Source: Serinibacter arcticus
GTDB taxonomy: Bacteria; Actinomycetota; Actinomycetes; Actinomycetales; Beutenbergiaceae
NCBI RefSeq assembly: GCF_003121705.1
Contig: NZ_PYHR01000002.1
Coordinates: forward strand, 1,426,001-1,490,000
Reading direction: 5' to 3'
DNA: 64,000 nt
Position numbers and translations under genes: made by a program. The stretch's first letter is position 1. Each line of letters begins with the position of its first letter. Shown in pieces: positions 1 through 7,443 of the stretch. A model generated the notes under the pieces. That model worked only from the letters and a program-made list of their open reading frames with translations. It was not told the origin of the DNA and ran no database searches.

Positions 1-683
1 GCCTCGACGTCGATGTCCCCGTCGTCCGTCCGCGGCCAGTCCCGGGCGCCGGTCATCTCGCGGAAGAGGGTCAGGTCGTCGTCGCCGAACGTGGCGCCGT
101 CGAACATCAGCTCGGTCAGCGTGATCTCGTCGGGACCGTACGTCGCCGCCAGGTGCCCGACCATCGCGACGAGCGCCTCGCCCACCTCGCCGTCGTGCAG
201 CGCCGACGCCGAGGCGAACAGCCCCGACCGTGCGCCGTCGACCTCCTCCCCCGCGAGCGCGGGGTCGGCCGCGAGCGTCTCGGGCGCCAGGGCGTCGACG
301 GTCAGCACGACCCGTCTCACCCGGCCGTCCGCGTCGGTCGCGACGGCGTCGATCGCCTCGGCGAGGAAGTCGCGTCCCGTCCGCGCGACGGCGGCGGACT
401 CGCGCTCGCTGCTGCCTGGCCACGGGAACGCGCTCCACTCCGGACGGCCGGCAGCGAGGTGGACCGCGTTGGCGTTGACACGGTCCAGCTCGGCGGCGAT
501 CTCGTCCCAGTCGGCGTCCTCGACCACGACGTCCTCGAAGCCGAGGCTCACCGCCCTGGTCCGTGCGTCGACGAGTGCCGCCACGGCGTCCTCCTCGCGG
601 TCGGGGGTGCACGCCGCGAGCGCGACGGGCAGCAGGAGGGCGAGCACGAGGGCGGTGCCGGGTCCCGGCCGCGCGTACCTCAC
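1..683 (-). CDS. Secreted lipoprotein, 3' part outside window; possible glycoside-hydrolase-like domain
   Basis: The gene runs off the left edge, leaving 227 residues. It starts with GTG inside the stop of the upstream glycosyltransferase gene (GTGA overlap), so the two are translationally coupled. Residues 1-25 form a signal peptide with lipobox VALAAC; Cys25 should be lipidated and the protein anchored outside the membrane. The mature part begins with an acidic helix and then a region (about 50-90) with W-D-E-I-A-A-E-L and a G-R-P-E-W...F-P-W pattern that resembles the first strand of TIM-barrel hydrolase-like lipoproteins. That is an impression only. Last of four polysaccharide genes, it might trim or bind the exported polymer. 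Lipoprotein status is firm; the function is not. Confidence 0.75.
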   Translation of the reverse strand, partial: MRYARPGPGTALVLALLLPVALAACTPDREEDAVAALVDARTRAVSLGFEDVVVEDADWDEIAAELDRVNANAVHLAAGRPEWSAFPWPGSSERESAAVARTGRDFLAEAIDAVATDADGRVRRVVLTVDALAPETLAADPALAGEEVDGARSGLFASASALHDGEVGEALVAMVGHLAATYGPDEITLTELMFDGATFGDDDLTLFREMTGARDWPRTDDGDIDVE

Positions 684-1948
684 GAGCGCACCGACGGCAG
701 TGAGACGACGCCGGTGCGCTCCAGCTTGTTCCAGCGCTGCGGTGCCCGGCGCACCTCCAGGTCGAGCGCCTTGAGGAAGACGGCGCTCATGAGGATCGAG
801 TAGAGCGGCCAGAGCGTGAGCGTCCAGGCGAACCGCAGGTCGCGCCAGGCCCCGTTGAGGGCGATCGCGACCAGCAGGAACAGCAGCGAGACCGGGACAC
901 CGAGCCACAGCACGACCTGCCAGGCGGCCACGGCGGCGGGCGGCAGGTCGTCGAGCCCCTGCGCCAGGGAGGCCAGGACGAACAGCAGCACGGCGATCTG
1001 TGCGACCGGCAGGACGAGCGCGTTCAGGGCGAGCAGCGGCAACGAGAGCCCGAACGTCCCGTGGCGCGGGTTCCCGACCATCGAGCGGTGCCGCGCGAAC
1101 GTCTGCAGGAGTCCGCGGCCCCAGCGCACCCGCTGGCGCCACAGCCCGCGCAGCGTGGAGGGTGACTCGGCGTAGACGATCGCCGACGGGGCGAACACGA
1201 CGCGGTAGCCGGCCCGGTAGATGCGCCAGGTCAGCTCGAGGTCCTCCCCCAGCGTGTCCTCGTGGAGCCCGCCCGTGCGCTCGAGCACGTCGCGCCGGAA
1301 CGCCCCGATGTTTCCCGACACGATCGGCAGGCAGCGCAGCACGTCGAGAGCCCGGCGCACGAGACCTGTGCCGACGTGCGAGATCACGGCGAGGAACCGC
1401 GTCTGGACCCGGTCCAGGTTGACCGGCCGGTCGTCGCCGCACACGGCCCCGACGCCGTCGTCGACGAACGCCTCGACCATCCGTCCGATCGCCGCGGGCT
1501 CGAACACGCCGTCGGAGTCGCTGAGCAGGAGCACCTCCCCCGTCGCCAGGGCGATCCCGGCGTTGAGCGCCGACCCCTTGCCGCCGTTCGGCTTGGTGAT
1601 CGCGCGGACGCGCGGGTACCGGGCGGCGAGGTCCTGCATCTGCCGGTAGGTGTCGTCCGTGGAACCGTCGTCCACGAGGATCACCTCGAAGTCGGGGTAG
1701 GTGCTGCGCATCAACGAGCTCACGCAGCCCTCGAGCACGTTGCCCTCGTTGTAGGCGGGCACGACGACGCTCACCGGCGGCCGACGCGCGCCGTAGATCG
1801 ACGTCCGGGCCCGGCGGGGCGCCCGGGCGCGGGCCCGGGCACGCACCTCGAAGCCGAGCGCCAGCGGCAGGAAGGCGAGCTTCAGCACGCCGAGGACGAG
1901 GGCGCCGAGCCCGACGAGCTCGGCGCTCGCCACGAGGGCGCCGGTCAT
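680..1948 (-). CDS. Membrane family 2 glycosyltransferase (IcaA/PgaC-like polysaccharide synthase)
   Basis: This 422-residue protein fits processive GT2 synthases. It has an N-terminal membrane helix (about 5-35), then the GT-A catalytic domain: VVVPAYNEGN near 58, DDGSTDDT near 90 (nucleotide-sugar binding), DSD near 143 (metal), GEDLEL near 233 (catalytic acid) and QRVRW near 271, the QxxRW motif of processive synthases. Two or three C-terminal membrane helices follow. The ATG overlaps the stop of the ATP-grasp gene by ATGA, which fixes the start; longer in-frame starts would run through that gene. By family it should polymerise a UDP-sugar, possibly GlcNAc, and pass the chain across the membrane. 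A deacetylase in the same operon suggests a partly deacetylated amino-sugar polymer (inference). Confidence 0.88.
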   Translation of the reverse strand: MTGALVASAELVGLGALVLGVLKLAFLPLALGFEVRARARARAPRRARTSIYGARRPPVSVVVPAYNEGNVLEGCVSSLMRSTYPDFEVILVDDGSTDDTYRQMQDLAARYPRVRAITKPNGGKGSALNAGIALATGEVLLLSDSDGVFEPAAIGRMVEAFVDDGVGAVCGDDRPVNLDRVQTRFLAVISHVGTGLVRRALDVLRCLPIVSGNIGAFRRDVLERTGGLHEDTLGEDLELTWRIYRAGYRVVFAPSAIVYAESPSTLRGLWRQRVRWGRGLLQTFARHRSMVGNPRHGTFGLSLPLLALNALVLPVAQIAVLLFVLASLAQGLDDLPPAAVAAWQVVLWLGVPVSLLFLLVAIALNGAWRDLRFAWTLTLWPLYSILMSAVFLKALDLEVRRAPQRWNKLERTGVVSLPSVRS

Positions 1949-2856
1949 GACGTCGCGAGCTCCGCCCGACCCAGGTCCCGCAGCACCGAGCGCAGCAGCT
2001 CCGGCGCGCTCGCCGAGTTGGCCCCGAAGCGCGCGTTGACCTCCAGCACGACGGGCAGACCGTCCTCGTCCCGACGGATGTCGAGGTCGACCGGCCCCGA
2101 CAGGTCGAGGGCGACGACGGCGGACTCCGCCAACCACGCGACGTCGGCCGCCTCGTCCGCGTCCAGGCGCACGGTGCTGACGGCGTTCCCGATGCGCCCC
2201 TCGCGCATCTCGGTCTTCTCGAGCACGACCACCGTCACGGCGCCGGTGCGCGGCGAGCGGTAGACCTGGGGCGAGTACTCGGTGCCAGGCGCGAACGACT
2301 GCAGGATCCAGGAGTCGTCGATCCCCCAGGGCGCCGCCGCGTCCTCGACGAGGCGCACGCCACGCCCTCCGCGGGAGACCCGAGGCTTGGCGATGACGGC
2401 GCCGTCGAAGTGGGCCAGCGCCCCGGCGGCCGACGGACAGCTGCCCCCGGGGGCGAACCGCGGGACGGACACCCCGGCCGCGTCCAGCGCCCACATCGTG
2501 TAGAGCTTGTCGGCGCAGATCGCGGCCGAGGTGGTGCTGGTGACGACGACGTCGGGGCCGGCCACGCCGTCGCCGAGCAGGTCCGCCAGCCCCGCCACCA
2601 GGGCGAGCTCCTCGGCCACCGTGGGGATCACGACGTCGGCACGCACCCGACCGACCAGGTCGCGCAGCGCGACGGCGTACTCCGGAGCGTCCACCCGGGG
2701 CAGCGTCGTGGTGAGGGCGAAGCTGGCGTCCGCGATCGGCAGCATGTCCGCACCGATCGCGATGAGATCGGGCTCGCTCTCGCGCAGCTGCGCGAGCTGG
2801 GCTCCCAGCGCCCGTCCGGCGGGTCCGCCCGCCCCGGTGACCAGAACCGTCGTCAT
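1945..2856 (-). CDS. ATP-grasp family ligase
   Basis: A 303-residue protein. The N-terminal third is a Rossmann-like pre-ATP-grasp domain starting TTVLVTGAGGPAGRALG. The ATP-grasp fold follows: a lysine-bearing strand (VIAKPRVSRGGRGVRLV, about 145-160), a hinge strand, and the metal-binding end VDLDIRRDEDG...VLEVNARFGANSA (about 260-285) with the D, E and N expected to bind Mg-ATP. It looks like carbamoyl-phosphate-synthase-type ATP-grasp proteins found in polysaccharide and nucleotide-sugar loci. By family it joins a carboxylate to an amine or similar acceptor with ATP; the substrate cannot be read from sequence. ATG is fixed by overlap with the PIG-L stop. It may modify the polymer or its precursor. 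Confidence 0.82.
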   Translation of the reverse strand: MTTVLVTGAGGPAGRALGAQLAQLRESEPDLIAIGADMLPIADASFALTTTLPRVDAPEYAVALRDLVGRVRADVVIPTVAEELALVAGLADLLGDGVAGPDVVVTSTTSAAICADKLYTMWALDAAGVSVPRFAPGGSCPSAAGALAHFDGAVIAKPRVSRGGRGVRLVEDAAAPWGIDDSWILQSFAPGTEYSPQVYRSPRTGAVTVVVLEKTEMREGRIGNAVSTVRLDADEAADVAWLAESAVVALDLSGPVDLDIRRDEDGLPVVLEVNARFGANSASAPELLRSVLRDLGRAELATS

Positions 2857-3794
2857 CCGATGAACTCCTTCACGTTCTGCAGGTAGCGCACGGGCTCGAA
2901 CCCCTCGGCCGCCGGCACCTTCGCCTGCGCCCCGCGGAACGCCGCGATGCCCTTGACCCGGCTCGCGGTCATGTACGGCTTGCCCGACTGGTCGCGGTGC
3001 GTCTGCACCGCCCTGATCTTCAGGTCGACGAAGTCCGAGATGTCGACGAACACGCTCGGGCTGAACGAGCGCGTGACGGACGGCGACTCGAAGCACAGGA
3101 TCGAGTGCGCCTGGCGCCCGGCCCGCAGCACCGCGCGGTGCACGGCCTGGTGGTCCTGGTGCTGGTCGTGCTCGGAGTGCGTGAGGATCGTGCCCGGCCG
3201 GAACGCGGTGATCGCCGCCTCGATGACCTCGATCATCGCGCCGTTCGCGTCCGCGAGGAACGTGTCAGGGAAGTCGTGCACCGTGACGTCGGTGGTGCCG
3301 AGCATCCTGGCGCCGGCGACGGCCTCCTCGCGGCGAGCCGCGGGATCACCGCCGCGGGTCCCCCGGCTCATGACGAGCACCTTGACCTCGTGGCCGCGGC
3401 GCGCCAGCGAGGCGACGGTCCCGCCGCACGCGAGCTCGAGGTCGTCCGGGTGGGCACCGACGACCAGCACCCGGCGCGGCTCGTCGCGGCGAGGCGCCGC
3501 GCGGAAGCCGTGGTGCAGCACGAGGCCGACCAGCCCGGTGAGCACGACCAGCACCCCGGCGTCGACGATCTCGCCGACCGTGTGCGGGTGCGGGTCCCGC
3601 ACGTGGCGGGCGACGAGCACCACGTACGCGGTCAGGATCGCGGCGTACGCGGCGAGGATCACCAGGCGCACGCGACGCCGTCCCCGGTCGTCGGAGCGCT
3701 GGTCGGGCGAGGAGCGCCCCACCTCGCGCTCGCTCACCACGAGATACACCAGCATTGCTAGGGCGACGCACGCGCCCACGGCCGAGACAGCCAT
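2853..3794 (-). CDS. Membrane-anchored PIG-L (LmbE-like) deacetylase
   Basis: 313 residues from an ATG preceded by GGGGGAAG. Three hydrophobic segments near the N terminus (about 5-23, 45-63, 78-98) anchor the protein. The LmbE/PIG-L domain begins about residue 110: VLVVGAHPDDLELACGG carries the His and two Asp that bind zinc and act in catalysis, and HSEHDQHQDHQAVHRA supplies the further His ligands. Family members hydrolyse N-acetyl groups from GlcNAc conjugates (GlcNAc-PI, mycothiol precursor, bacillithiol precursor). Here the membrane anchor and coupling to a GT2 synthase favour action on a polysaccharide or lipid-linked amino sugar rather than mycothiol synthesis. First gene of the operon; its promoter should lie in 3795-3981. 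Confidence 0.85.
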   Translation of the reverse strand: MAVSAVGACVALAMLVYLVVSEREVGRSSPDQRSDDRGRRRVRLVILAAYAAILTAYVVLVARHVRDPHPHTVGEIVDAGVLVVLTGLVGLVLHHGFRAAPRRDEPRRVLVVGAHPDDLELACGGTVASLARRGHEVKVLVMSRGTRGGDPAARREEAVAGARMLGTTDVTVHDFPDTFLADANGAMIEVIEAAITAFRPGTILTHSEHDQHQDHQAVHRAVLRAGRQAHSILCFESPSVTRSFSPSVFVDISDFVDLKIRAVQTHRDQSGKPYMTASRVKGIAAFRGAQAKVPAAEGFEPVRYLQNVKEFIG

Positions 3795-3925
3795 CGTCTT
3801 CTTCCCCCTGGCACGGGTTACCCCATGTACCCCGCCCCGAGGGAGTCTAGCCGCGCGAGCCGGTGATGAAACCACGCCCGGGCCGATCCCGCACGTCGGG
3901 ACGGCCTCGCTCCGCACCCGTTGTC

Positions 3926-6846: not shown

Positions 6847-7443
6847 CTACCCGAGGGAGGACCGGCGGGCCGAGTCGTCCGCGGGAGCGACGTCGTTCTC
6901 GACGGCGTCGGCCTCCGCGTCGTCACCGTCGCCGTCGCCGTCGCCATCGCCATCGCCATCGCCATCGCCGAGGATCTTCTTGAGGTAGGCATAGGTCAGC
7001 TCGCCCGTGTGCTGGTCGTAGGCGTGCTCGAAGCCCTGGCCGGCGTACAGCGACAGGTTCTGCTTGGAGTCCTTGCCCGTGAAGACCCAGACCTCCTGGG
7101 TCTGCTCCGGCAGGTACTGCAGCACCGCCATGAGCAGCTGCGTACCGATGCCCGTGCCCTGCAGGTCGGGCACGACGGCGAGCCGGCCGAGCGTGGCCTT
7201 GCCGCCCTCGAGCTCGACGCGGATCGAGCCGACGAGGCGGTGGCCCTGCCAGCCGCCGAGCGTGACGACGTCGCTGCGGTCCAGGTCGGTCAGCAGCTCG
7301 TCGATGGTCTGGGTCAGGGGCGGGATGTGGGGATCGCCGTACCGCTGGGCCTCGGTCACGAACGCCGCTCGCCTCACGGTGAGCAGCTCCCCCGCGTCCT
7401 CGGCCTCCACGACGTCGATGCGCAGGCCCTCGTTGGTGCTCAT
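6847..7443 (-). CDS. GNAT family N-acetyltransferase with acidic DG-repeat tail
   Basis: The first ~160 residues are a complete GNAT domain: VTLGGWQGHRLVGSIRVEL strand, LGRLAVVPDLQGTGIGTQLL with the acetyl-CoA-binding R/Q-x-x-G-x-G/A loop, and FTGKDSKQNLSLYAGQGFEHA with the usual Y-x-x-x-G-F end. A tail of eight DG pairs and further Asp/Glu/Ala follows, almost certainly disordered. The tail is encoded by a run of hexamers (see repeat). The start ATG is at 7443, 41 bp from the divergent purU. The stop abuts the glyA riboswitch, so transcription from this gene could read into glyA. Acceptor substrate unknown. Confidence 0.88.
   Translation of the reverse strand: MSTNEGLRIDVVEAEDAGELLTVRRAAFVTEAQRYGDPHIPPLTQTIDELLTDLDRSDVVTLGGWQGHRLVGSIRVELEGGKATLGRLAVVPDLQGTGIGTQLLMAVLQYLPEQTQEVWVFTGKDSKQNLSLYAGQGFEHAYDQHTGELTYAYLKKILGDGDGDGDGDGDGDGDDAEADAVENDVAPADDSARRSSLG
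6925..6969. repeat. Hexamer microsatellite encoding a DG tract
   Basis: About seven tandem hexamers, CGCCGT then CGCCAT on the plus strand, lie inside the 3' end of the GNAT gene and code for alternating Asp-Gly. Slippage would change tail length in steps of two residues without breaking the frame. Confidence 0.8.

Follow-up and report, generated by a model that had tools for sequence, protein, structure and literature searches.

A minus-strand operon of Serinibacter arcticus, lying at the left end of the window analysed here (the whole stretch of 64,000 nucleotides, G000:C2:1426001-1490000), probably encodes a synthase-dependent exopolysaccharide system in its Gram-positive form; an amino sugar would be deacetylated in the cytosol and probably re-acylated before export. 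The operon is transcribed in the order PIG-L deacetylase, ATP-grasp ligase, glycosyltransferase of family GT2 and lipoprotein, and all four genes are present (Table 1). A previous interpretation of this DNA, made from its letters alone (the sequence-only reading), had described the same four genes joined by 4-base overlaps. Base-by-base reading of the three junctions found an exact 4-base overlap in each and confirmed all the genes, with two corrections: the lipoprotein gene is present in the window but incomplete there, running 504 bases past its left edge, and in PIG-L three predicted membrane helices come ahead of a complete catalytic domain. The PIG-L frame is backed directly by the codon-position GC content (0.74/0.50/0.92), while the ATP-grasp, GT2 and lipoprotein frames come from a purpose-built GC-frame gene caller.

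Conservation of the gene set

The sequence-only reading proposed a search for conserved co-occurrence, and PIG-L, ATP-grasp and GT2 indeed form a conserved set. Loci were retrieved by the ATP-grasp profile alone with flanks of up to 9 kb a side, and the best 80 of at least 298 found were studied; genes were called in them with hidden Markov models (HMMs) built here, with score limits set by eye (for example, PIG-L above 120 bits and ATP-grasp above 100 bits). PIG-L is found in 72 of the 80 loci, GT2 in 74 and the lipoprotein (hydrolase) domain in 43. Six loci without a visible GT2 (L121, L122, L124, L125, L130 and L148), some of which end at a contig edge, are counted as misses. The chance expectation for PIG-L is about 0.02 per locus, as the 4.06 Mb window genome has about five PIG-L genes (PIG-L was matched six times, but two of the matches probably belong to a single gene). 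According to record titles and lineages, the hosts belong to Actinomycetota, Chloroflexota, Myxococcota, Acidobacteriota and Pseudomonadota.

The commonest gene orders are PIG-L/ATP-grasp/GT2/lipoprotein (16 loci, and four more with a second ATP-grasp gene downstream) and this order lacking the lipoprotein (12 loci). Where PIG-L, ATP-grasp and GT2 form one run, ATP-grasp is in most cases the middle gene. The order PIG-L, ATP-grasp, GT2 is also kept in the closest matches (G006, G008, G012, G018 and G019) among the 59 relatives searched with PIG-L. The spread of the system is patchy: within the order of the window, ATP-grasp was detected at E 1e-25 or better in 32 of 392 genomes and the lipoprotein in 8 of 396 (six of these matches are strong), and two genomes of the same genus have neither gene. 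Two weak lipoprotein matches (E 7e-4), one in G169 and one in G354, were regarded as random; the neighbourhood of the latter (L066) has no operon genes.

The synthases fall into two branches, with the hydrolase domain accompanying only GT2A (43 of 43) and a PHP-domain protein only GT2B (10 of 10). The GT2B branch consists of PIG-L, ATP-grasp, the PHP-domain protein and GT2; this sister module, in which PIG-L may carry a receiver (REC) domain and which is often joined by a histidine kinase, was seen in L044-L047, L134, L137-L141, L143, L144 and L146. A different rearrangement occurs in Arthrobacter horti (L088 7936-17422), where two tandem PIG-L/GT2/lipoprotein sets follow one ATP-grasp gene and a second, weak ATP-grasp match also lies ahead of them.

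In the family of the window, an adhesin-like surface protein is encoded directly before the PIG-L operon of G008, G018 and G019. The only one checked by Pfam, that of L041, has Big_8 and Collagen_bind domains and an LPHTG-like tail. Such a neighbour fits a surface role of the operon.

No publication considering PIG-L, ATP-grasp and a glycosyltransferase together was found in the open-licence literature. Listings of that literature for PIG-L and exopolysaccharide contained nothing resembling the operon. The main text of PMC7112194, in the part available, names neither PIG-L nor ATP-grasp, and the cluster of PMC6414854 appears from a partial text to be an ordinary pga-like one.

The four proteins and their Gram-negative counterparts

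The deacetylase matches PF02585 with 97.2 bits (cut-off 28.2), which places it in the PIG-L/LmbE superfamily. Its metal/catalytic motifs AHPDD and HSEHDQHQDH (pattern HxxxDxHxDH) are invariant in 14 aligned rows, and strict patterns found both of them in 71 of 75 PIG-L open reading frames (ORFs), missing four. The sequence-only reading had called this protein a membrane PIG-L, which agrees with three transmembrane helices predicted by hydropathy at about residues 1-23, 41-65 and 71-100, ahead of the complete catalytic domain. There are eight lysines and arginines in loop 1, five after the third helix and one in the outer (second) loop.

PIG-L is fused to a REC domain in 23 of the 80 loci, and a histidine kinase is present in 20 of these. 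In 15 of the 23 (Cellulomonas, Promicromonospora, Isoptericola, Nocardioides and others) the fused gene lies opposite an ATP-grasp/GT2/lipoprotein operon; the remaining eight belong to the GT2B branch. Pfam, applied to one fusion, gave Response_reg (85 bits) and PIG-L (90 bits), with HisKA/HATPase_c in the neighbouring product. All 24 fused ORFs have the conserved lysine and 23 have the PIG-L motifs; a pattern search detected the phospho-acceptor aspartate in 19, and inspection by eye showed it in the remaining five, which have isoleucine before it. We found no publication in the open-licence literature on a response regulator with a PIG-L output domain. Receiver domains are cytosolic, so the fused PIG-L must be cytosolic as well. 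In five Gram-negative loci, as judged by eye, the protein begins with a segment resembling a signal peptide, and TPR repeats and three transmembrane helices follow ahead of the PIG-L domain; TPR and PIG-L were confirmed by Pfam in the L126 fusion.

Taken together, the topology and charge of the three-helix protein, the TPR-containing arrangement and the REC fusions suggest that the catalytic domain of PIG-L probably faces the cytosol. This divides the claim of the sequence-only reading that PIG-L replaces PgaB/IcaB: PIG-L does belong to the set, but PgaB and IcaB act outside the membrane. The predicted cytosolic location implies that the substrate would be a precursor, a primer or a chain end and not the exported polymer. 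A biofilm effect was described for a C. difficile pig-L mutant; the gene context was not found in the available part of that paper (PMC12613277).

GT2 is of the processive type, as had been claimed. Its top NCBIfam match is TIGR03937, it matches Glyco_tranf_2_3 (PF13641) with 126.5 bits, and the D, DxD, ED and QxxRW motifs (D93-D94, D144xD146, E235-D236, Q272xxRW276) occupy invariant columns in nine aligned sequences. Hydropathy predicts membrane helices at the N- and C-terminus, and GT2 thus combines the processive motifs and membrane helices of synthase-dependent exopolysaccharide systems. All four strict patterns were found in 52 of 58 GT2A ORFs (six missed). The TIGR03937 match, although the best, reaches 186 bits with the PgaC/IcaA cut-off at 422.3, and the NodC equivalog TIGR04242 gives 80 bits with a cut-off of 550. 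For the GT2 domains a tree was built from 32 rows selected from the loci plus the window, YaiP and PgaC. Its YaiP and PgaC branches are very long, the program warned of long branches meeting, and the forks holding both are weak or suspect, so we make no claim of kinship from it.

The ATP-grasp protein matches ATP-grasp_3 (PF02655) with 48.5 bits and carries the metal/ATP motifs KPRVSRGGRGV and E-x-N-x-R; strict motif patterns miss 10 of 68 ORFs. It scores under the cut-off of every named NCBIfam family (NF009402 75.7 bits, cut-off 218), and its nearest solved relative, 2pn1, is named only as carbamoylphosphate synthase large subunit.

The lipoprotein has no relevant Pfam or NCBIfam match. An AlphaFold model of the Pseudoclavibacter homologue (L069; alignment A4 of 44 sequences) has a predicted local distance difference test score (pLDDT) of 93.7, and its top VIA-align matches are the C-terminal hydrolase domains of PgaB from E. 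coli and Bordetella (Z 27.6 and 26.4 over some 315 residues). The model superimposes on 4p7q (Z 27.6) with a root-mean-square deviation of 3.1 over 317 residues and has the same barrel fold as GH153. A glutamate at the end of a central barrel strand (E177 of L069) is invariant in 44 rows and would lie near the region of the PgaB catalytic aspartate (D474). A strict motif pattern for the hydrolase domain misses 3 of 45 ORFs. A beta-propeller had been considered from phmmer matches to PknD (0.0035) and to a designed propeller over a stretch of about 77 residues; it was dropped, as the profile did not repeat them and the modelled fold is a barrel. Through this PgaB-hydrolase-like lipoprotein, the modelled tie to PNAG (poly-N-acetylglucosamine) systems would be stronger than the sequence-only reading knew.

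In six Gram-negative loci GT2 and the hydrolase domain form one polypeptide with the hydrolase domain C-terminal, after the membrane helices; the count is limited to loci seen fused, and L118 (28 bits) ends at a contig edge. A gene for a TPR plus beta-barrel protein is present in all ten Gram-negative loci of the GT2A branch (nine strong HMM matches and one weak), and a porin of this build is a mark of synthase-dependent exopolysaccharide systems. Its model (alignment A5, nine sequences; pLDDT 83.9) has 16 strands. VIA-align places PelB first (Z 19.0 over 321 residues), with BcsC at 15.7; the polysaccharide outer-membrane secretin 4y25, which we take to be PgaA, has Z 16.2 and is ranked first by Foldseek. 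These porin data imply that the wider family has the architecture of an exporter of the synthase-dependent exopolysaccharide type. A sequence link to the E. coli barrel protein YaiO was sought in the L117 and L122 porins and none was found: they do not match TIGR04390 or PF19413, while YaiO itself scores 182 bits.

Proposed route and its alternatives

From the gene set, its conservation and the computed folds, fusions and motifs, we infer the following route. GT2 would polymerise, and probably extrude through the membrane, a hexosamine chain, most likely of the N-acetylglucosamine (GlcNAc) type. PIG-L would deacetylate the amino sugar on the cytosolic side; its substrate could be a sugar-nucleotide precursor, a lipid primer or the end of the growing chain. 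The amine set free in this way would most likely receive an acyl or aminoacyl group from the ATP-grasp protein, likewise inside the cell. On the outer face the lipoprotein may bind or trim the chain as it comes out, much as deacetylated PNAG is handled by the hydrolase domain of PgaB. The outer domain of the present system would be tethered either by its lipid or by the synthase itself. In Gram-negative members the chain would leave through the TPR/16-strand outer-membrane porin. In several actinobacterial families, where PIG-L is the output of a response regulator, deacetylation would probably be switched by a histidine kinase.

In known cationic biofilm polymers such as PNAG and Pel, deacetylation takes place only once the chain is outside the cytosol. 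The operon shares with the PNAG systems (pgaABCD/icaADBC) a PgaC-like GT2, a PgaB hydrolase-like outer domain, a de-N-acetylase in the set and, in Gram-negative members, a TPR/16-strand porin. It differs in that its deacetylase is a PIG-L protein, predicted to be cytosolic, instead of an extracytoplasmic CE4 enzyme, in the additional ATP-grasp ligase, in a hydrolase domain that stands alone as a lipoprotein or is joined to the synthase instead of to the deacetylase, and in a GT2 that scores below the PgaC cut-off. None of the four proteins matches the CE4 deacetylase family PF01522 (the two matches of the genome are at C2:817231 and C2:2772848), and no small PgaD/IcaD-like partner is encoded in the operon, the adjoining gene being an exonuclease. 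The operon would thus work like a PNAG-type system but falls outside PNAG by its synthase, its deacetylase and its partner genes. The likeness to Pel lies in the Gram-negative porin, whose fold VIA-align matches best to PelB; the synthase is PgaC-like and not of the Pel type, although no search was aimed at Pel genes.

An ordinary PNAG-like system, with PIG-L in place of PgaB/IcaB deacetylating the polymer outside the cell and the ATP-grasp protein a bystander, would account for the PgaC-like GT2 and the PgaB-like hydrolase domain, and GH153 enzymes do need a deacetylated substrate according to the available part of PMC5933820. We find it unlikely, as the topology and the REC fusions place PIG-L in the cytosol, the ATP-grasp gene usually stands between those of PIG-L and GT2, and the TIGR03937 score is well under its cut-off. 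A cytosolic deacetylase and ligase are compatible with the logic of Nod factor synthesis, in which the product of NodC is deacetylated inside the cell by NodB and then N-acylated by NodA; GT2, PIG-L and ATP-grasp would take these roles in turn and yield a modified oligosaccharide or glycolipid. The NodC HMM score of GT2 agrees with this, as do the nearest solved PIG-L relatives, diacetylchitobiose and BshB-type deacetylases, which act on short substrates, and the E. coli pair yaiS-yaiP, whose neighbour, an LbetaH protein, is listed in K-12 as a putative acyltransferase. The large export porin of the PelB/PgaA/BcsC kind in Gram-negative members and the fusion of a GH153-like outer domain with the synthase are, however, more in keeping with a long chain, and we give a Nod-like product a rather small chance. 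By analogy, Nod factor synthesis may still be the nearest precedent for inside deacetylation and subsequent N-acylation of a GT2 product: nodCBA likewise has a GT2, a cytosolic deacetylase and an N-acylating enzyme in sequence, but its deacetylase and acylase are of other families, and the outer hydrolase-like domain and porin belong only to the present system.

The combination of deacetylation and ligation is also the logic of thiol cofactors, and the top NCBIfam match of PIG-L is BshB1 (TIGR04001, 90 bits). A relative of the mycothiol or bacillithiol pathway, with GT2 adding GlcNAc to a metabolite, is nevertheless very improbable. The curated cut-offs are not reached (182.5 for TIGR04001; TIGR04000 50 bits, cut-off 195; MshB TIGR03445 27 bits, cut-off 224), a better MshB candidate, the best of the genome, lies at C2:3719700 (200 bits, itself under 224), and a membrane-bound GT2 of the processive type, an outer lipoprotein and a porin do not fit such a pathway. 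We therefore rule out a mycothiol or bacillithiol locus. The sequence-only reading had itself named mycothiol genes in the left flank as evidence that would count against it; the flank holds an exonuclease and an ABC exporter. Its interpretation as a whole is partly supported.

Several observations weigh against the exopolysaccharide route proposed here. PIG-L, ATP-grasp and GT2A occur without the outer hydrolase domain in 12 of the 80 loci, and G008, G012, G018 and G019 of the window's own family also do without it, so this domain is not obligatory. The lead of PgaB over other barrels is only 2 to 4 Z units (Cwp19 25.4, GH42 enzymes 24.3 and less), and Foldseek places Cwp19 and two beta-amylases slightly above it. 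Comparison of the hydrolase domain with the E. coli PgaB sequence by hhalign was not significant (E 0.14) and does not by itself establish kinship to GH153. PgaB holds glucosamine (GlcN) by three aspartates (PMC5933820, in the part available); these are not all conserved, and inspection of alignment A2 by eye showed no constant equivalent of them. The fold match, the invariant glutamate and these incompletely conserved aspartates point to a PgaB fold, a carboxylate that could plausibly be active and perhaps another pattern of sugars. BamA also matches the porin model (Z 18.6), and the top-matching ATP-grasp families are generic. Finally, we know of no exact precedent for a processive synthase paired with a deacetylase inside the cell.

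A bolder proposal would make these loci a new class spanning at least five phyla and defined by cytosolic PIG-L de-N-acetylation and by ATP-grasp re-acylation before or during export. The product would be a chain, or the end of one, made of N-aminoacyl glucosamine, and in many actinobacteria a histidine kinase would switch the deacetylase directly. We offer this proposal tentatively, the status of a distinct class being uncertain but attractive. If true, the order of the chemistry would differ from that of PNAG and Pel, the polymer would probably be a novel N-substituted one, and deacetylation would be switched directly through REC-PIG-L and not via gene expression or cyclic di-GMP.

The comparison also offers a testable frame for the E. 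coli yaiS-yaiP-LbetaH (yaiX)-yaiO locus, a plausible distant cousin of the operon. PIG-L, a PgaC-like GT2 and an outer-membrane barrel are encoded there side by side, and the profiles built here match yaiS and yaiP with 148 and 130 bits. The LbetaH protein replaces ATP-grasp, there is no hydrolase domain, and the YaiO barrel (TIGR04390) has no sequence similarity to the TPR-barrel porin. As PgaC outscores YaiP with the GT2 profile (176 versus 132 bits), GT2 alone does not prove kinship to YaiP. Among 5426 complete E. coli genomes, 4791 contain yaiS-yaiP DNA with a coverage of at least 80%, and listings of the open-licence literature contained no characterisation of the function of the locus. 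In E. coli K-12 (L149 4570-9117) the yaiX gene, annotated as a putative acyltransferase, is split by IS2; in E. coli M37H (L151) it is listed whole and the PIG-L gene is annotated as incomplete.

Surroundings of the operon

Past the lipoprotein gene, the left flank (L007) continues on the same strand with an exonuclease III-like gene; an ATP-binding cassette (ABC) export system lies on the opposite strand. A small plus-strand gene, folD and glyA lie to the right of the operon. All these names come from reading of the sequence. A consensus scan, a weak method in GC-rich actinobacteria, found no sigma-70-type promoter or terminator around the operon.

Table 1. Positions of the operon genes, their junctions and related features (window positions unless a locus is named)
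Feature	Position	Strand	Basis
PIG-L deacetylase, 313 aa, three predicted transmembrane helices, then complete PIG-L domain	2853..3794	-	Pfam, alignment, hydropathy
ATP-grasp ligase, 303 aa, CarB/PRK12767-like	1945..2856	-	PF02655, NF009402, alignment
GT2 polysaccharide synthase, 422 aa, PgaC/IcaA/NodC-like	680..1948	-	PF13641, TIGR03937, alignment
Lipoprotein, 395 aa, GTG start at 683, lipobox LAAC	1..683, ends 504 bases left of the window (L007 11496-12683)	-	ORF
4-base overlap ATGA, PIG-L/ATP-grasp	2853..2856	-	sequence
4-base overlap ATGA, ATP-grasp/GT2	1945..1948	-	sequence
4-base overlap GTGA, GT2/lipoprotein	680..683	-	sequence
Possible ribosome-binding site, purine-rich GGGAAGAAG, immediately 5' of the PIG-L ATG	3798..3806	-	sequence
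REC-PIG-L beside histidine kinase, examples	L043 6278-9090; L064 10122-13003		
Adhesin-like surface protein	L039 5830-6918; L040 5768-6886; L041 5330-6670		

Elsewhere in the window, at 6847-7443 on the minus strand, sequence reading suggests a GNAT-like acetyltransferase, the C-terminus of which carries a run of Gly-Asp repeats (DGDGDGDGD...).

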